From Sphingobacteriales bacterium (lineage in GTDB: Bacteria > Bacteroidota > Bacteroidia > CAILMK01 > JAAYUY01), in the NCBI GenBank assembly GCA_012517435.1, contig JAAYUY010000069.1, forward strand, positions 1-33,111: a DNA stretch of 33,111 nucleotides, given 5' to 3'. Positions 13,361-32,340 of the stretch are shown here, piece by piece. The notes beneath the pieces are model-generated. The model made no database searches, had not been told where the DNA came from, and saw nothing but the letters and a program-made list of their open reading frames with translations. Made by a program: the position numbers and the translations under genes. Within the stretch, counting starts at the first letter, position 1, and each line of letters starts with the position of its first letter.

Positions 13361-13629
13361 TGAGACATGTAAACATAACCATTTCAGGAATTGTTCAGGG
13401 AGTTGGGTTCAGATTCTGGGCAAGAAATATGGCTGAAAATCTTGGCATAAAAGGATTTGTAAAAAATCTTCCTGACCAAAGGGTTTATATTGAAGCAGAG
13501 GGAGATGAACATTCAATTGATTTGTTCATTGAAAAGTGTAAGGCAGGTCCAACACATGCAAGAGTCAGCAAGATTGAAGTTGTTGATTCTGAACTAGTTA
13601 ATTTTACAAATTTTATCATCACAAGATAG
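13360..13629 (+). CDS. acyP: Acylphosphatase
   Basis: An 89-residue protein of normal family length, hydrolysing the carboxyl-phosphate bond of acyl phosphates such as acetyl phosphate or 1,3-bisphosphoglycerate. Active-site signature SGIVQGVGFRFWA gives phosphate-binding R18, and GFVKNLPD gives catalytic N36. Both key residues are present. The start overlaps the TerC stop by one base. The last 11 bases overlap, tail to tail, the 3' end of the large sensor gene on the other strand. Pairing with TerC has no known functional explanation. Confidence 0.95.
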   Translation: MRHVNITISGIVQGVGFRFWARNMAENLGIKGFVKNLPDQRVYIEAEGDEHSIDLFIEKCKAGPTHARVSKIEVVDSELVNFTNFIITR

Positions 13630-16534
13630 ATTTTAATTTCTTCCCTGCTTTGGCAATGGAATCCAAAATTTTTCTGGTGGTATCGTATTCTATTTCTGAC
13701 AAATATCTCGGATCAATAAAATTATCTGGTATGGCATTTTTTTCAATAGCATCAAGCTGATTTTTAATTCTGAGCAACATTAACCAGTTATAAGCAAAGT
13801 CAAGTTCTTCAAGGTACAGTTTGTCGAGACCAGAAATATTGGCAAGACTTTCAAGCCTTGCTGAAGTATTTATCTCATTTAGCTGAAATTTTAGGGATAA
13901 TATTCGCACAAGGTTGGTGATATGAGCTATGCTCGTTTTAATATTAAAGGCTGATGGATGCCTGTCTGTTTTCTCAGTGATAATTTTTCCAAAGACATTC
14001 ACCTGTGTTTTATAAGTCGAAATATCTGAAATTAGTAACTGCAACAATATCTTTGACTTGTACAATTCATTCGCAATATGATTTTTAATTTCTGAGATAA
14101 GCGAAGCATCTCCAAAAACATTCCGTACATCAAAAAAAGCAGTGTATTCAAACCTTTCATCATCTCCACCGGAAATAATCCATTTTGTGTATAAAGCTTT
14201 CCATTCCTGCAACGACAAACACCATTTCGGATTCATAGCCATCAGATCGCCCGGACACAGGTCAAACCCGGCTTTATCAAGTCCATAACAAATATACTGG
14301 CTGAATTGCAAAAAATATTTTTTCACCTCTTCAAGGCGACTAATTTCAACATTTTCAAATACCAAAGCATTGTCCTGATCTGTTTTAAGGGTTAATTCCC
14401 GCCTGCCCTGACTTCCTATTGCCAGAAAAGAATATTTGACAGGTGGTTTTCCCAATTCATTTTCTGCCCAGATACATAACTTTTCAACAACCGCATCCGA
14501 AACATTTGTTATTAAATCAGTGATTGTCTGATATTTAGATCCTCCATGAATATACATTTTGCAGAGTGTATGGAGTTTTGGTTTCAGGTCTGTCCATTCT
14601 TCAGGGGATTTTGAATTTTGGATGGTTAATATCAGTACAGAAGCTGAATTTTGCTGAAGTTGCAAAATATCATTAACCGATACTATTCCAGTAACACTCT
14701 GATTATCCCCTGTAACAGGTAAATGGTTTATTCTTTTTTCCTGCATTTTCAGCAATGCCTCATGGACAAGGGCAGATTCGGGCAAACATATCAGAGGAGT
14801 TGTAAGAACTTCTTCTGCATAAACATCTTTCCCGAGTCCTTGTGCGAGAACTCTGTCACGTAAATCATGATCCGTTATTATTCCAATGAAGTTATTATCT
14901 TTCTTAACCAGAATAGCATCGGTACGATTGATCTGCATGGTTTCGATTAATTGCCCGGTGGTGGCTGAAGCATCGCAAAAGACCACTTTTCTTGCAATAG
15001 TTTTCAATGGTTGGTGCAGGAGATAAGAGGAGGATTTGAGATTTAACATCAAATTCTCTTTTTCCAGAATCTTTCGTGCTTCTCCCGATTTATCAATAAT
15101 CATTCCCTCAATATAGCTGTCATTATTTTCATTATCATGTATTTTAACAGCAGATAATTCAGCAATCAGCTCAGAACCGTTGTTGCTTTTCATTCTGACC
15201 TGAAAATTTTTAATAAAGCCTGATAGGATAATATAATGTTCAAAGATTTCCCATTCATTCTGATTTAAAAAGAAGTCCTTTAGCAAGAAAGAAAAAATTT
15301 CATTCTGGAAATTAAATCCAAGTATTTCACCAAAAGCTCTGTTAACTTCGAGAAAGTCAGGATTTTCCAGACTGCTAATTCTGAACAGGCCAATATGAAC
15401 AATATCGAGTAAATCCTTATATTTTTCACGGCTGAGCCCTATTTGTTTCCGGGCAAATTCTTCAAACATGATGTCTTTGGCAGAAATAACCACTGCTAAG
15501 CGGTCTTCAATAATTATTCTGGAGCAATTGACAAACATGTTGATAAAAGAGCCATCTTTTCTTCTCAGATGGGCTTCAAAATTTTTAGGTTCTGCCACAC
15601 CAAGCATCAGATAGCGAAGATATTTATCTCCCAGATACCTGTCAATCTGTTGCTGAGAGATTATATCATGAATATGAAGATGGGGAATGTCTTCATCTTT
15701 ATAACCAAGCAAACGCTGCATGTTTTTATTCAGATTCAGCCTTAAATCTTCAAAAACCATGATCACTCCTTCAGGATTGGCCTCTGCCAGTGCTTTATAT
15801 TTTTCAAAAGTTACTTTCTTTTCTTTTTCAGCCAACTGTCTTGAGATTTCAATTTTTAAAGCATGCCGTATCAAAAAAAACATTAATAACAGAACAAATA
15901 TGAAAATTGCGAGTGATATTTCGATTGTATTCCGCGTCAGCTTTTTAGTTTCTGATCTGATATCATTTAAATAAATTCCTGTTCCAATAATCCAACCCCA
16001 TGGCTTAAAAATTTTGACGAAAGATATTTTTTCTTCAATTTTTAAAGAATCATCCTGCCATTGCCACATATAACGGATATATCCTTCTCCGCTTTCTGAC
16101 GTTATTTGTTTAGCTTCCTGAAATAGTCTTTTCCCTTTCTCATCTTTAAAGTTGCCGACATATTTTCCTACCAGGTCTTTTCTGTAAGGATGCATGATCA
16201 TGACAGGAGTTGTATCGATAATCCAATAATAATCTTTTTTATCTGTACCATACCTGACCTTTGCAAGCTTATCAATAGCATATTTCTGTGCCGAATCTTT
16301 TGGTAAAAAGCCAAATAACTCATCATAATAATAAGCATACAGAACGCCCCAGGAAGTTTCAGTAAGCTCTCTGACATGCTGTTTTTTTTCTTCCAGCAGG
16401 TTATTACGGGCTGAAGGGATAATGAATATAAACACGAAAATAAAATAGAGTATAATGGCTAATACGGCAGGAATAACTATCCCTGCCATAGAGCCTGAAT
16501 ATTTTTTCCAATTCCGTTTTAATTCGTTAATCAT
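13619..16534 (-). CDS. Membrane sensor: Cache-PAS-PAS-CBS-CBS-DUF294 nucleotidyltransferase-like protein
   Basis: A 971-residue multi-domain protein. Membrane helices at about 17-40 and 203-224 flank a periplasmic single-Cache domain (YYWIIDTTPVMIMHPY, KPWGWIIGTGIYLNDI). After a short linker come two PAS domains (about 246-358 and 368-480; first with YKALAEANPEGVIMVF, second with YKDLLDIVHIGLFRI), two CBS domains (about 513-570 and 576-635; GIITDHDLRDR, INHLPVTG, GIVSVNDIL), and the DUF294 unit: a GlnD/PolB-like nucleotidyltransferase core (GSQGRRELTLKTDQDNA, G707 to A723 with D719/D721 as metal ligands) and its helical C-terminal partner (about 820-965). Catalytic metal residues look intact, so it may transfer nucleotides to an unknown target. 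It follows the phosphoesterase gene by 18 bp in a three-gene operon with a porin. Confidence 0.93.
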   Translation of the reverse strand: MINELKRNWKKYSGSMAGIVIPAVLAIILYFIFVFIFIIPSARNNLLEEKKQHVRELTETSWGVLYAYYYDELFGFLPKDSAQKYAIDKLAKVRYGTDKKDYYWIIDTTPVMIMHPYRKDLVGKYVGNFKDEKGKRLFQEAKQITSESGEGYIRYMWQWQDDSLKIEEKISFVKIFKPWGWIIGTGIYLNDIRSETKKLTRNTIEISLAIFIFVLLLMFFLIRHALKIEISRQLAEKEKKVTFEKYKALAEANPEGVIMVFEDLRLNLNKNMQRLLGYKDEDIPHLHIHDIISQQQIDRYLGDKYLRYLMLGVAEPKNFEAHLRRKDGSFINMFVNCSRIIIEDRLAVVISAKDIMFEEFARKQIGLSREKYKDLLDIVHIGLFRISSLENPDFLEVNRAFGEILGFNFQNEIFSFLLKDFFLNQNEWEIFEHYIILSGFIKNFQVRMKSNNGSELIAELSAVKIHDNENNDSYIEGMIIDKSGEARKILEKENLMLNLKSSSYLLHQPLKTIARKVVFCDASATTGQLIETMQINRTDAILVKKDNNFIGIITDHDLRDRVLAQGLGKDVYAEEVLTTPLICLPESALVHEALLKMQEKRINHLPVTGDNQSVTGIVSVNDILQLQQNSASVLILTIQNSKSPEEWTDLKPKLHTLCKMYIHGGSKYQTITDLITNVSDAVVEKLCIWAENELGKPPVKYSFLAIGSQGRRELTLKTDQDNALVFENVEISRLEEVKKYFLQFSQYICYGLDKAGFDLCPGDLMAMNPKWCLSLQEWKALYTKWIISGGDDERFEYTAFFDVRNVFGDASLISEIKNHIANELYKSKILLQLLISDISTYKTQVNVFGKIITEKTDRHPSAFNIKTSIAHITNLVRILSLKFQLNEINTSARLESLANISGLDKLYLEELDFAYNWLMLLRIKNQLDAIEKNAIPDNFIDPRYLSEIEYDTTRKILDSIAKAGKKLKSIL

Positions 16535-26821: not shown

Positions 26822-26916
26822 AATTAAGAAGGCCAATGAAAGCCAGTTCCTCACAAAAATTTATTAAAATCTGAATGCTGTGAATAAAAGCATTTGCCGG
26901 AAGCATAACAGCCGGA

Positions 26917-26924
26917 TAATTTTG
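26917..26924 (+). promoter_or_regulatory. Promoter -7 box TAATTTTG for the kinase-RapZ/murU pair
   Basis: TAATTTTG matches TAnnTTTG and lies 15 bp before the GTG at 26940, implying a very short leader and arguing against the GTG start at 26880. Confidence 0.5.
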
Positions 26925-26939
26925 CATCAAAAAAGACCA

Positions 26940-28361
26940 GTGGAAAAAGCTGATATACTTATACTTAATGAATTATTCTACAGGCACTTCGATCAAATCG
27001 CAAAGGAAACTTTAAAACTGCCTGCTTCAGGATCGGTAAGGGAATATTACCGGTTAAAGTCAGGCAATTCAACGGCTATAGGTGCATTCAACAAAGATAT
27101 CAGGGAAAACATGGCATTTTTTACCCTTACACGTCATTTCAGATGGCTCGGATTAAATGTCCCTGATATTTTTGAAGTAGAAACCGACCAAAAGCATTAT
27201 CTTCTGCAGGATTTAGGCGACACAACACTTTTCAGCTATTTACAGGAAGCCGGATCTGAAGATAAAATAAGCGAAAAATATTTTTCAGCAGTTGAAAACC
27301 TGCTTGACTTTCAGTTTATCGGCCATCGCGGACTTGATTACAATATCTGTTACCCACGCAAAGCCTTTGATAAGCAATCCATGATGTGGGACCTGAACTA
27401 TTTCAAGCATTATTTTATTCGCCTTGCAGGTGTAACTTTTGATGAACAGGCACTTGAAAATGACTTCCACACTTTTACCAACTTCCTTATGCAAGCCGGA
27501 ACCGACAATTTTATGTTTCGTGATTTTCAGTCAAGAAACATTATGGTTTTCGGAGAAAAACTTTATTTTATTGATTACCAGGGAGGAAGGCGTGGCCCAC
27601 TTCAATACGATCTGGCCTCTCTCCTGTTTGATGCAAAAGCTAACCTGTCGCCTGAGTTCAGGTTGAAGGTGATGGAACATTACATCGAAACGGGGAAAAA
27701 ACAATTTGGTATCAATCCGGAAATTTTCAATAAGTTTTTTTATCCTATTGTGTTGATCCGCATCATGCAGGCTTTCGGGGCTTATGGATACAGAGGCTTT
27801 TTTGAAAGAAAAACACATTTTCTCCAAAGTATTCCTTTTGCCCTGAAAAATCTTGAATGGATTTTTGACCATTACAGGCCTGAGCTACATCTGCCTGAAC
27901 TGTACAGAGTTTTTGAACAGATACTTGTCAGTAAAACCCTCAGCGAGCTTAGTTTTACACCAGCCAGTGGGTTGACAGTTTCCATCAACAGTTTCAGCTA
28001 TAAAAAGAGCTATCCGCTCGATAACAGCGGAAATGGCGGTGGTTTTGTCTTTGACTGCCGCTTTTTACCCAATCCCGGACGCTTTGCAGAATATGCAGAA
28101 TTGAATGGAAAAGACCCGAGAGTCATTGCCTTTCTTGAATCAAAGCAAGAGACCAACGAATTCCTGAAAAATGTGTTTGCCATTACTGATGCTGCTATTT
28201 CAAATTACCTTGAAAGGAAATTTTATCACCTCATGATTTCTTTTGGATGTACGGGTGGTCAACACCGCTCAGTCTATTTTGCCGAAAAGCTGGCCCAAAG
28301 ATATGCCGGTATGCAGGGCGTTAACGTCAGGGTCAAACATTTTGAACTTGACAAATCATGA
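26940..28361 (+). CDS. AmgK-like sugar kinase fused to a RapZ C-terminal domain
   Basis: Start chosen at GTG 26940 (473 residues): the frame continues to GTG 26880, but the extra 20 residues are strongly basic and a promoter box falls inside them. Residues about 1-335 are an aminoglycoside-phosphotransferase-fold kinase: substrate/ATP segments LPASGSVREYYRL and LLQDLGDTTLFSYL, catalytic loop FRDFQSRNIM (D195, N200) and metal site IDYQGG (D212). This is the AmgK type, which phosphorylates MurNAc/GlcNAc at the anomeric position. Residues about 343-473 match the RapZ C-terminal domain: FVFDCRFLPNPG and SFGCTGGQHRSVYFAE. In E. coli that domain binds glucosamine-6-phosphate and helps control GlmS. 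The 3' end overlaps a MurU-like gene by 4 bp. The kinase substrate is inferred from that partner. Confidence 0.88.
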   Translation: MEKADILILNELFYRHFDQIAKETLKLPASGSVREYYRLKSGNSTAIGAFNKDIRENMAFFTLTRHFRWLGLNVPDIFEVETDQKHYLLQDLGDTTLFSYLQEAGSEDKISEKYFSAVENLLDFQFIGHRGLDYNICYPRKAFDKQSMMWDLNYFKHYFIRLAGVTFDEQALENDFHTFTNFLMQAGTDNFMFRDFQSRNIMVFGEKLYFIDYQGGRRGPLQYDLASLLFDAKANLSPEFRLKVMEHYIETGKKQFGINPEIFNKFFYPIVLIRIMQAFGAYGYRGFFERKTHFLQSIPFALKNLEWIFDHYRPELHLPELYRVFEQILVSKTLSELSFTPASGLTVSINSFSYKKSYPLDNSGNGGGFVFDCRFLPNPGRFAEYAELNGKDPRVIAFLESKQETNEFLKNVFAITDAAISNYLERKFYHLMISFGCTGGQHRSVYFAEKLAQRYAGMQGVNVRVKHFELDKS

Positions 28362-29047
28362 AAAAAGCGATGATTCTGGCAGCAGGCAAAGGCACAAGGT
28401 TAAAACCTTTCACCGATACCATGCCCAAAGCACTATTTCCTCTTAATGGAACACCAATCTTAGAAATTGTAATTCAAAGACTTATAAAATACGGTTTTAA
28501 AGACATCATTATCAATGTTCATCATTTTGCCGAAAAAATTGAAGAATTCTTACAAATTAACAACAATTTTGACATCAACATCACTTTCTCCCATGAGGAA
28601 AATCTTCTTGAAACAGGAGGCGGCTTAAAAAAAGCTTCCTGGTTTTTTGAAAAAAGCGGCTATTTTCTGGTTCACAATGTTGACATCATCTCTGATCTGA
28701 ATTTAGAAGAGTTTTTTACTTATTCAGTTGAAAATCAAAGTATTGCAACATTAGCTGTTTCAGAACGGGATTCTTCGCGTTATTTTTTATTTGACTCAGA
28801 GATGAATTTAAAAGGTTGGCGAAACACAAAGACTGGCGAAACCATCATTTATGAAAATTCCGCACTTCGGCCTTATGCTTTCAGTGGCATTCAGGTCTTG
28901 TCCGATTCTATTTTTCAGTTTTTCCCCGAAAAAGATGTTTTCTCCCTCACGGAACTATATTTAACAGTCTGCGGTCGGCAGCAAGTCAGGGGATATCTGC
29001 ATAGTGCAGGAAACTGGATGGATGTCGGTAAAACGGTCAGCGGATAA
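28358..29047 (+). CDS. MurU-like sugar-1-phosphate nucleotidyltransferase
   Basis: A 229-residue NTP-transferase of the short MurU/RfbA-like type: signature LAAGKGTRLKPFTDTMPKAL at residues 7-26, ETGGGLK (about 86-92) and NVDIISD (metal Asp). There is no C-terminal acyltransferase domain as in GlmU. Next to an AmgK-like kinase, the likely reaction is UTP + MurNAc-1-phosphate (or GlcNAc-1-phosphate) to the UDP-sugar, the recycling route that bypasses de novo synthesis and confers fosfomycin tolerance in pseudomonads. The ATGA overlap with the kinase gene indicates coupled translation. The sugar specificity is inferred from context; mannose-1-phosphate guanylyltransferases are similar in sequence. 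Confidence 0.88.
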   Translation: MKKAMILAAGKGTRLKPFTDTMPKALFPLNGTPILEIVIQRLIKYGFKDIIINVHHFAEKIEEFLQINNNFDINITFSHEENLLETGGGLKKASWFFEKSGYFLVHNVDIISDLNLEEFFTYSVENQSIATLAVSERDSSRYFLFDSEMNLKGWRNTKTGETIIYENSALRPYAFSGIQVLSDSIFQFFPEKDVFSLTELYLTVCGRQQVRGYLHSAGNWMDVGKTVSG

Positions 29048-29149: not shown

Positions 29150-30010
29150 ATGGAGAGCGCAGAAATAAATAATTTGCAAAAAATTGCCACCCAGGTCAGA
29201 AGAGATATTATCAGAATGACCAACCATGCGAAATCAGGACATCCGGGCGGGGCACTCGGAGCAGCTGACTTACTTACCGTTCTGTTTTTTCATACCATGC
29301 ATATCGACCCTGATAAATACACTGACACCGGAATAGGCGAAGATGTTTTTTTTCTTTCAAACGGCCACCTTTCTGCCCTGTTTTACAGCATTCTGGCCAG
29401 AAGAGGTTATTTCGATGTGGATGAACTTTCAACTTTCAGAAAGCTGAACAGCCGCCTTCAGGGGCACCCTGCTTCTGTCGATAATATCCCTGGTATCCGA
29501 ATTTCAAGCGGTTCACTCGGACAAGGTTTAAGCGTTGCCATCGGACATGCTTTGGCAAAGAAACTCAACAACGACAATCATCTTGTTTATGTTTTATGCG
29601 GAGATGGTGAACTACAGGAAGGACAAAACTGGGAAGCTTTTATGTTCGCTGCTCATCATAAAGTTGACAATCTCATTGCCATTATTGATTTCAACAATAA
29701 ACAAATTGACGGAAACGTTAGTGATGTCATGTCATTAGGTTCACTCGAAGATAAAATGAAAGCCTTTGGCTGGTACACCCTTAACATGGATGGACATTCC
29801 TATAAAGATATTATTGCCTCACTTCAGGTAGCTGGTCAGGTATCCGGACAGTCAAAACCTGTCTGCATCATCATGCACTCCGTCATGGGAAAGGGTGTTG
29901 ATTTTATGGAAAACAACCATCATTGGCATGGAGTAGCTCCTGATGATGATCAAACTATTCGTGCACTCGCACAATTGCCTGAAACTTTAGGAGATTTTAA
30001 AATAATCTGA
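29150..30010 (+). CDS. tktA: Transketolase, N-terminal (thiamine-diphosphate binding) subunit
   Basis: A 286-residue subunit of a split transketolase, moving two-carbon units between sugar phosphates in the non-oxidative pentose phosphate pathway (EC 2.2.1.1, with the second subunit). It covers the pyrophosphate-binding domain: SGHPGG near residue 30, LQGHPAS, SGSLGQGLSVAIG, and the ThDP/Mg motif GDGELQEGQNWEA, with Asn further on and the histidine-bearing NNHHWHGVAP end. No Pyr domain follows, as expected for the split form. The partner subunit is two genes downstream rather than adjacent; a secreted VWA protein gene lies between. Confidence 0.95.
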   Translation: MESAEINNLQKIATQVRRDIIRMTNHAKSGHPGGALGAADLLTVLFFHTMHIDPDKYTDTGIGEDVFFLSNGHLSALFYSILARRGYFDVDELSTFRKLNSRLQGHPASVDNIPGIRISSGSLGQGLSVAIGHALAKKLNNDNHLVYVLCGDGELQEGQNWEAFMFAAHHKVDNLIAIIDFNNKQIDGNVSDVMSLGSLEDKMKAFGWYTLNMDGHSYKDIIASLQVAGQVSGQSKPVCIIMHSVMGKGVDFMENNHHWHGVAPDDDQTIRALAQLPETLGDFKII

Positions 30011-30011
30011 G

Positions 30012-31379
30012 ATGAAACTAATCTCTAAAACGCTGATAATTTTATTATTACTAATAACAACTCAGTCAAATGTTTTTTCACAAAATCCAAAAACACGCAT
30101 CCTTTTCCTGCTTGACGGATCAGGTAGCATGTGGGGATTATTTGAAAAAGAAGTAAAAATTGATGTTGCCAAACGACTTTTGACCAAACTTGTTGATAGT
30201 ATTTCCCAAAATAAGGAGGTTGAAATGGCGCTAAGGGCTTACGGGCATGTCAGTCCAAAGGTAAAACAGGATTGTAAGGATACACGTCTGGAAGTACCTT
30301 TCGGCCCCGACAATAAGGATCAGATTATTGCCAGGCTTAAAGAAATCCGGCCAAAAGGAACGACACCAATTGCGTATTCTCTTTCAGTGGCAGCAAACGA
30401 CTTCCCTCGTGCCAACAATGTCAGAAACATCATCATTTTGATTACTGATGGCATCGAAGAATGCGGAGGTGACCCTTGTCAGGTTTCCCTTTCACTTCAG
30501 AAGAGAGGCATCATGCTAAAACCTTTTATCATTGGGTTAGGCATCAATGAAGATTTGATCAGTCAGCTGGACTGTGCCGGAAATTTCTTTAATGCCACCG
30601 ATGAAAATTCTTTTGAAAAAATCCTTAATGTGGTCATTTCCAATGCTTTAAACAACACTACAGCCCAGGTAAACCTGCTCGACAGTTATGGAAAAGCAAC
30701 AGAAACCGATGTTGACATGACCTTTTACGAAAGCAAAAAAGGTATGATTATGTACAACTTCTATCATACCCTGAATGATGCCGGACTACCTGATACCCTT
30801 TTCATTGATCCTTTTATGAATTATAATCTTGTCGTTCATACACTTCCACCTGTTACAAAAGAAAATATATCTCTGAATCATGGCAAACATAATATCATTG
30901 CCGTGAATGCACCTCAGGGCTATTTAAATCTGGTGATAAAAGGAATTACTCAGTATAAGAACCTGATAGCAGTTGTTAAAAAAGCAGGCGGAACAGAAAC
31001 GGTTTATGCACAGGAATTTAATACGTTACAAAAATATCTGGTCGGGAGGTATGATCTGGAGATTCTTAGCCTGCCGCGGATTTACGTTAAAGATGTTGAA
31101 ATCAAGCAAAGTTCAACAACAACCATTGAAGTTGAGCAACCAGGTAAAATAGTTATTTATTCGTCAACTCCCATGATAGGATCCATTTTCAGGACTGTCA
31201 ACGGAAAACTGGAATGGGTTACCAACCTTGACGACAAGCTTCTGACTCAGGTGCTGATCATGCAACCCGGCACCTATATTTTATCCTACCGCAGAAAAAA
31301 TGCGCGTAGTACTTTCTACACCAATGACAAAGAGTTTGTGGTTTCATCAGGAACATCCCTCAGTATCAATTTAAAATAA
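30012..31379 (+). CDS. Secreted von Willebrand factor A domain protein
   Basis: A 455-residue protein with a signal peptide (1-23, ending VFS before QNPK). The VWA domain (about 28-215) has a complete MIDAS: DGSGSM (D35, S37, S39), a Thr in KGTTPIAYS and Asp in LITDGIEECG, so it can bind a metal and a ligand. The C-terminal 240 residues are beta-rich with Ig-like or carboxypeptidase-regulatory-like strands (for example YGKATETDVDMTFYES, PQGYLNLVIKGI, QPGTYILSYRRK). The mature part would be periplasmic or on the surface. It begins one base after the first transketolase gene and ends one base before the second, so all three share a transcript. Its link with a cytoplasmic pentose phosphate enzyme is not understood. 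Confidence 0.9.
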   Translation: MKLISKTLIILLLLITTQSNVFSQNPKTRILFLLDGSGSMWGLFEKEVKIDVAKRLLTKLVDSISQNKEVEMALRAYGHVSPKVKQDCKDTRLEVPFGPDNKDQIIARLKEIRPKGTTPIAYSLSVAANDFPRANNVRNIIILITDGIEECGGDPCQVSLSLQKRGIMLKPFIIGLGINEDLISQLDCAGNFFNATDENSFEKILNVVISNALNNTTAQVNLLDSYGKATETDVDMTFYESKKGMIMYNFYHTLNDAGLPDTLFIDPFMNYNLVVHTLPPVTKENISLNHGKHNIIAVNAPQGYLNLVIKGITQYKNLIAVVKKAGGTETVYAQEFNTLQKYLVGRYDLEILSLPRIYVKDVEIKQSSTTTIEVEQPGKIVIYSSTPMIGSIFRTVNGKLEWVTNLDDKLLTQVLIMQPGTYILSYRRKNARSTFYTNDKEFVVSSGTSLSINLK

Positions 31380-31380
31380 G

Positions 31381-32340
31381 ATGAAAGAATATCCAGTAAT
31401 CAACATCAAATCAACCCGTGCCGGTTTTGGAGATGCCCTTTTCGAAGTTGGCATGAAGAATAAAGATATTGTTGCACTTTCAGCCGATTTGTCCGATTCC
31501 GTTAAAATGACCAAATTCAGGCAAGCTTTCCCTGAACGCTTCTTTCAGGTCGGAATAGCCGAAGCAAATATGATAGGTATAGCTGCAGGACTGGCTACCG
31601 GAGGAAAAATACCTTTTACAGGTACATTTGCCAATTTTTCAACTGGCCGGGTTTACGATCAGATCAGACAATCAGTGGCTTACAGCAAGAAAAATGTTAA
31701 AATATGTGCCTCCCATTCGGGACTGACAGTGGGTGAAGACGGAGCCACGCACCAGATTCTGGAAGACATCGGACTAATGAAAATGCTGCCCAATATGACG
31801 GTTATTAACACCTGCGATTACAATCAGACCAGGCAGGCCGTTCATGCGATTTCTGATTTTGATGGCCCGGTTTATCTTCGTTTCGGCAGACCTGATGTCC
31901 CTAACTTTATTCCTGATGATATGCCCTTTGAAATAGGGAAAGGAATAATTTTAAATGAAGGCACAGATATTACGGTTTTTGCTACCGGACATCTGGTATG
32001 GAAAGCCCTTGTGGCTTGTAAAATACTTGAAGAAAAAGGAATCAGCGCAGAAATCATAAATATTCATACCATAAAACCACTTGACAAAGAACTGATTCTG
32101 AATTCTGTACATAAGACACTCTGCGCCATCAGCGTTGAAGAACATCAGAAGTCAGGTGGAATGGGCGAAAGCATTGCCTCCTTGCTGTCTGCCGAATTGC
32201 CAGTATTTTTTGAGGTTGTCGGTGTTAATGATGTCTTTGGTGAAAGCGGTAAACCGGAAGAGCTTTTAACAAAATTTGGACTTTCTGAAAATCATATTGT
32301 TGAAGCTGCTTTAAAAATTTTGAAGAAAAAAACACATTAA
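31381..32340 (+). CDS. tktB: Transketolase, C-terminal (pyrimidine/C-domain) subunit
   Basis: A 319-residue second half of the split transketolase. It contains the pyrimidine-binding domain (about 8-170), with the catalytic Glu in FQVGIAEANMIGIA and the TFANFSTGRVYDQIR and GLTVGEDGATHQ segments, and the C-terminal domain (about 185-315; GTDITVFATGHLVWKA, TIKPLD, EEHQKSGGMGESIA). Active-site residues look complete. It starts two bases after the VWA stop codon. DXS is larger and single-chain; pyruvate dehydrogenase beta is the other relative, but the partner's GDGELQEGQ motif and lengths fit transketolase. Confidence 0.95.
   Translation: MKEYPVINIKSTRAGFGDALFEVGMKNKDIVALSADLSDSVKMTKFRQAFPERFFQVGIAEANMIGIAAGLATGGKIPFTGTFANFSTGRVYDQIRQSVAYSKKNVKICASHSGLTVGEDGATHQILEDIGLMKMLPNMTVINTCDYNQTRQAVHAISDFDGPVYLRFGRPDVPNFIPDDMPFEIGKGIILNEGTDITVFATGHLVWKALVACKILEEKGISAEIINIHTIKPLDKELILNSVHKTLCAISVEEHQKSGGMGESIASLLSAELPVFFEVVGVNDVFGESGKPEELLTKFGLSENHIVEAALKILKKKTH

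Follow-up and report, generated by a model that had tools for sequence, protein, structure and literature searches.

A fusion of an AmgK-like sugar kinase and the RapZ C-terminal domain, paired with a MurU-like gene, with a probable role in MurNAc salvage

A Sphingobacteriales bacterium (contig JAAYUY010000069.1) encodes a protein in which an AmgK-type sugar kinase is joined to the C-terminal domain of RapZ (RapZ_C), and the gene that follows encodes a MurU-like enzyme. The fusion is real: 38 of the 395 genomes sampled from the phylum carry it, and it has at least 590 related stretches in GTDB, which rules out chance or an assembly artefact. Both the fusion and the salvage setting in which it lies are well founded, and the pathway that the two genes serve is probably MurNAc salvage. 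On a more tentative level, somewhat short of probable, we propose that they form a two-gene salvage unit in which RapZ_C acts as a CX5RS phosphatase for MurNAc-6-phosphate (MurNAc-6P), with substrates, activity and order of steps that we infer. The AmgK-MurU(-MupP) route is an anabolic form of MurNAc recycling in Pseudomonas and Caulobacter that by-passes the target of fosfomycin, and AmgK and MurU have also been assigned in Tannerella forsythia.

Architecture of the fusion gene and its partner

The window, that is, the whole stretch of 33,111 nucleotides that was analysed, contains the following features of the locus.

26940..28361 (+): fusion gene, AmgK-type sugar kinase plus RapZ C-terminal domain, giving 473 aa with GTG 26940 as the start
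26940..27940 (+): kinase domain of APH/AmgK-like type, roughly residues 1-334 of the 473-aa protein (PF01636, NF045759, 3csv)
27516..27539 (+): kinase catalytic loop FRDFQSRN, in which Asp195 (catalytic) and Asn200 do not vary among 36 fusions
27570..27587 (+): kinase metal-binding motif IDYQGG, with Asp212 invariant
27972..28349 (+): RapZ C-terminal domain PF22740 (2.8e-34 on the genome)
28032..28043 (+): NGGG insertion, typical of the fused/Bacteroidota RapZ_C subfamily and missing in E. coli RapZ
28077..28079 (+): glycine in place of the E. coli RapZ pocket residue H190
28245..28271 (+): GCTGGQHRS, the phosphate-pocket loop of RapZ and also a C-X5-R-S (CxxGxxRS) phosphatase-type signature; invariant columns
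28358..29047 (+): MurU-like N-acetylmuramate-1-phosphate uridylyltransferase, in a 4-bp ATGA overlap with the fusion gene

The uninterrupted frame spans 26880-28361 (+) and has an upstream GTG at 26880; GTG 26940 is preferred as the start, since alignments with relatives begin near that position. Numbered on the long frame (26880-28361), the Pfam matches are PF01636 (APH) at residues 75-269 (1.2e-8) and PF22740 at residues 366-490 (1.7e-33), and the closest NCBIfam families are RapZ (2.5e-29) and AmgK (NF045759, 5.7e-18), both under their equivalog cut-offs. These matches bear out the original prediction that an AmgK-type kinase is joined to RapZ_C. The N-terminal P-loop domain of RapZ (PF03668) was missing from both the fusion protein and the window genome in profile searches. 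A confident AlphaFold2 model of the fusion has two domains, with a mean pLDDT of 92.4 and a pTM of 0.73; its C-terminal part matches RapZ in the PDB, and the top PDB fold match of its kinase half is 3csv, a putative APH from Silicibacter sp. TM1040 that is also the best sequence match but lacks a RapZ_C domain and is of unproven function. Given this pTM and a linker around residue 340 that is modelled with low confidence, the two domains may be flexible in the fusion.

The kinase half has the APH fold, the catalytic Asp/Asn pair and the metal-binding Asp expected of AmgK, and Asp195, Asn200 and Asp212 are identical across 36 fusions. Because it scores 65 bits against an equivalog cut-off of 550, in a strict model, we term it AmgK-like only. 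The top NCBIfam match of the adjoining open reading frame is MurU (NF045761; 146.5 bits, 1e-42, with the cut-off of 250 not reached), and its product resembles the solved MurU-type structure 4y7t (1.8e-21). The relationship to AmgK and MurU that had been recognized in the DNA is thus upheld by homology and by the invariant catalytic residues of the kinase. The predicted coupling to MurU is tight here, as the ATGA overlap indicates, and a MurU-like gene adjoins the fusion in 31 of the 38 fused genomes of the phylum sample (the window counted); it is, however, not universal, since only 51 of 80 wider loci (the best 80 of at least 590 GTDB stretches) have a MurU-like gene within 1 kb.

The likeness to the AmgK-MurU(-MupP) route consists in a related kinase and uridylyltransferase encoded side by side, together with an AnmK in the window genome, whereas the differences are the RapZ_C domain on the kinase, the lack of a clear HAD-type MupP and homology below the equivalog level.

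Other genes of the window include a split transketolase, with N- and C-terminal subunit genes at 29150-30010 and 31381-32340, between which lies a VWA-domain gene (30012-31379) on the same strand.

Distribution of fused and separate RapZ C-terminal domains

The architecture proved to be widespread in a survey of APH-RapZ fusions, which found it in several phyla. In the phylum sample, RapZ_C is present in 49 of 395 genomes, fused to the kinase in 38 (one of them, G031, with an in-frame stop in the fusion) and encoded in 11 as an open reading frame of its own of about 133-165 aa. The window genome (3.19 Mb, 97% complete) has a single RapZ_C, and none of the 395 genomes has a RapZ N-domain at or over the cut-off. 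In 85 more genomes, almost all from family f19, a kinase match comes without any RapZ_C; in every case examined (nine of f19, plus G009), this kinase adjoins a MurU-like gene.

Outside the sample, at least 590 motif-carrying GTDB stretches encode a relative of the fusion, and each of the best 80 matches most of its length. Among the matches listed are Bacteroidota, Ignavibacteria, Calditrichia, Acidobacteria, Elusimicrobia, Gemmatimonadota and Marinimicrobia. All four of the Acidobacteria and Elusimicrobia genomes checked also encode an ordinary RapZ; this coexistence indicates that the fusion forms a protein lineage of its own and has not taken the place of RapZ. The architecture appears not to be described in the literature searched, which took in few subscription journals, and the same holds, as had been supposed, for its function.

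Seven genomes encode the kinase, RapZ_C and MurU as three separate genes in the same order, and in three others (G306, G271 and G180) RapZ_C lies away from both partners. The tree nests the larger split clade within the fused ones, and fission is therefore derived in that clade. In family f4 (L070-L079), where the fusion was split, the branch of the kinase is very long, at 2.12 changes per column, as if its constraints had changed. In two f48 genomes, a stand-alone RapZ_C (L082:5083-5493 and L123:14944-15441) is followed by the same membrane protein of about 425 aa, apparently a transporter, for which no NCBIfam match was found.

The phosphate pocket and pathway gene content

The fusion and the RapZ/YvcJ proteins of E. 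coli and B. subtilis have a homologous C-terminal domain and the CTGGxHRS pocket in common, and a stand-alone RapZ_C compared with RapZ gives about 31% identity and a TM-score of about 0.8. The fusion differs from them in having no P-loop N-domain, a Gly for H190, the NGGG insertion and lost RNA contacts. In E. coli RapZ, a sulphate/malonate pocket is formed by H190, T248, G249, H252 and R253, with C247 nearby, and H190A, G249W, R253A and C247A/S each abolish function (PMC5737377, PMC7073468, PMC9841335). The equivalents of C247, T248, G249, H252, R253, D182 and R184 are invariant in the 47 RapZ_C domains sampled from the phylum, as is the GGG of the insertion. GCTGGQHRS had been described as intact, and this loop is indeed conserved, but of the five pocket residues four are kept in the window, and the H190 position is Gly in 47/47 phylum domains and in 68/68 further fusions, which were chosen by an intact motif (the other 12 of the 80 wider loci have variant or interrupted motifs). 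In ordinary RapZ, this position is His in Acidobacteria and Tyr or Phe in Elusimicrobia, so that H190 is less universal than E. coli implies. A fusion from a Saprospiraceae MAG (L142) reads GCTGGQHHS, the sole loss of the motif Arg among the 80 wider loci, which may be either a natural experiment on the need for this Arg or a sequencing error.

The window genome contains AnmK, which makes MurNAc-6P, but neither MurQ nor a clear MupP. AnmK occurs in 21 of the 38 fused genomes, in all 11 split ones and in none of the 85 that have the kinase only. With two matches just short of the cut-off counted in, MurQ occurs in 20 of the 38 fused genomes and in none of the 11 split ones, in 0 of 11 kinase-only genomes tested and in all 20 tested genomes with no kinase. 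AnmK without MurQ was found in 16 of 80 genomes tested, including that of the window, and all 16 have RapZ_C; in these genomes MurNAc-6P therefore needs another outlet. A MurNAc-6P phosphatase would be expected wherever MurNAc-6P is produced and MurQ is lacking, and the counts, with the kinase-only genomes included, agree with this for RapZ_C. On the tree, however, the association of AnmK with RapZ_C reflects at most two independent changes and is not significant. Over about 4-5 kb around each fusion locus retrieved, no AnmK was found; its distance from the stand-alone RapZ_C of two f48 genomes is about 10-16 kb, and the two genes do not adjoin. No MupP over the NCBIfam cut-off was found in the RapZ_C genomes searched, an absence that weighs little because the strict model also misses Caulobacter, which has a reported MupP homologue. 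A Gph-like HAD protein, of which the window genome has one, could be a candidate for the MupP step.

Candidate roles of the RapZ C-terminal domain

In the mechanism that we propose, the two genes would form a unit for the anabolic salvage of cell-wall sugars. The kinase half would phosphorylate MurNAc, and perhaps GlcNAc too, at C1, and the MurU-like enzyme would convert the resulting MurNAc-1-phosphate to UDP-MurNAc. In the RapZ_C half, the conserved phosphate pocket would take up a 6-phosphosugar, and its CX5RS cysteine loop may turn MurNAc-6P, the product of AnmK, into MurNAc that is fed to the attached kinase. In Pseudomonas this step is the job of the HAD enzyme MupP, whose fold and chemistry are unrelated, so that any likeness would be functional only. 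To our knowledge, HAD enzymes of the Pseudomonas type are the main ones known to carry out the phosphatase step of the AmgK-MurU route; were RapZ_C to act as a MurNAc-6P phosphatase, a gap in the salvage route would be filled for several phyla, and both the essential cysteine and the altered ligand of E. coli RapZ would be explained.

Several observations point in this direction. No RapZ_C domain sampled from the phylum departs from the Cys, Arg or Ser of CX5RS, and the AlphaFold2 model places the GCTGGQHRS loop between a strand (430-437) and a helix (443-455), an arrangement found for the CX5R(S/T) loop of cysteine phosphatases, whose overall fold RapZ_C does not share. The stand-alone open reading frames in 11 genomes also count in favour of an enzyme. 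Both C247A and C247S inactivate E. coli RapZ, for which a catalytic SH has been proposed, and the crystal density of glucosamine-6-phosphate (GlcN6P) in the pocket resembled a chemically transformed product (PMC9841335). YvcJ is reported to have NTPase and phosphatase activity, and the source of that statement (PMC7525490) cites alongside it a paper on Xanthomonas HpaP whose title speaks of 'ATPase and phosphatase activity'. The activities reported for YvcJ and HpaP could stem from the N-domain, which counts against the phosphatase reading. We know of no phosphatase activity for an isolated RapZ_C domain. Foldseek at E<=0.001 returned RapZ only and a permissive Pfam scan found no phosphatase family in RapZ_C; neither search supports a global phosphatase fold, the fold being RapZ/PFK-like, and the phosphatase case comes down to the local loop. 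The lack of an assigned general acid likewise counts against an enzyme. The 17 of 38 fused genomes without AnmK and the 20 of 38 with MurQ also speak against a phosphatase; 13 of the former encode a full-length candidate BadF-type sugar kinase, which might make a 6-phosphate, and four do not.

A possible alternative, which we regard as plausible without being probable, is that RapZ_C senses an amino-sugar phosphate, GlcN6P or another, and regulates the kinase joined to it allosterically; this would be a control, familiar from small RNAs, that works through protein alone. The isolated C-terminal domain of E. coli RapZ is reported to bind GlcN6P tightly as a sensor, with a KD of 10 nM, which also tells against the phosphatase reading, and its self-association requires Asp182 (PMC7073468). 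Consistent with a sensor, the C247, T248, G249, H252 and R253 pocket is conserved and Asp182 is invariant in the sampled domains, so that the fusion may dimerize through RapZ_C. Yet H190, which is essential in vivo in E. coli (PMC9841335), is Gly throughout, although the Tyr or Phe of Elusimicrobia RapZ softens this objection. Moreover, RapZ_C can be encoded separately and even unlinked from the kinase, which is more than a purely intramolecular feedback domain would need; the 85 genomes with a kinase but no RapZ_C and the flexible domains suggested by the model also fit a sensor poorly. We therefore consider that an enzymatic role of the CX5RS loop accords with the gene content of the pathway no less well than a feedback sensor does; our narrow preference for it comes from the window genome, in which AnmK is present while MurQ and a clear MupP are missing. 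RapZ_C might also have a mainly structural role, dimerizing the kinase or docking MurU for channelling while the pocket binds the kinase's own phosphosugar product. Dimers of RapZ_C in E. coli (PMC5737377) and the gene order retained by the seven split loci agree with this idea, but we judge it unlikely, as CX5RS appears more strictly conserved than a scaffold would require and three genomes have RapZ_C unlinked from both partners.

Least of all do we expect an RNA-binding regulator of messenger or small RNAs as in E. coli, which is very improbable. Equivalents of K170 and R184 are usually basic, and these are the only RNA contacts kept in the window; K251 is Gln and R238 is aromatic in 47/47 sampled domains, and the window RapZ_C is without K194, R196, R211 and the basic tail, a tail described as restricted to Enterobacteriaceae (PMC7073468). 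With these contacts lost, the RapZ N-domain absent and GlmZ searched for in the window genome and not found, control in the E. coli style is unlikely. RapZ_C thus looks more like a working enzyme or a metabolite pocket than an RNA switch. 

Extending the enzymatic reading beyond the fusion, one can speculate that RapZ_C is an unrecognized cysteine-dependent sugar-phosphate phosphatase and that such chemistry lies at the origin of E. coli RapZ or persists in it; this is plausible, though we would not call it probable.

Elsewhere in the window, 13619-16534 (-) encodes a 971-aa protein that combines Cache, PAS, CBS and DUF294 nucleotidyltransferase domains, an unusual sensor arrangement.
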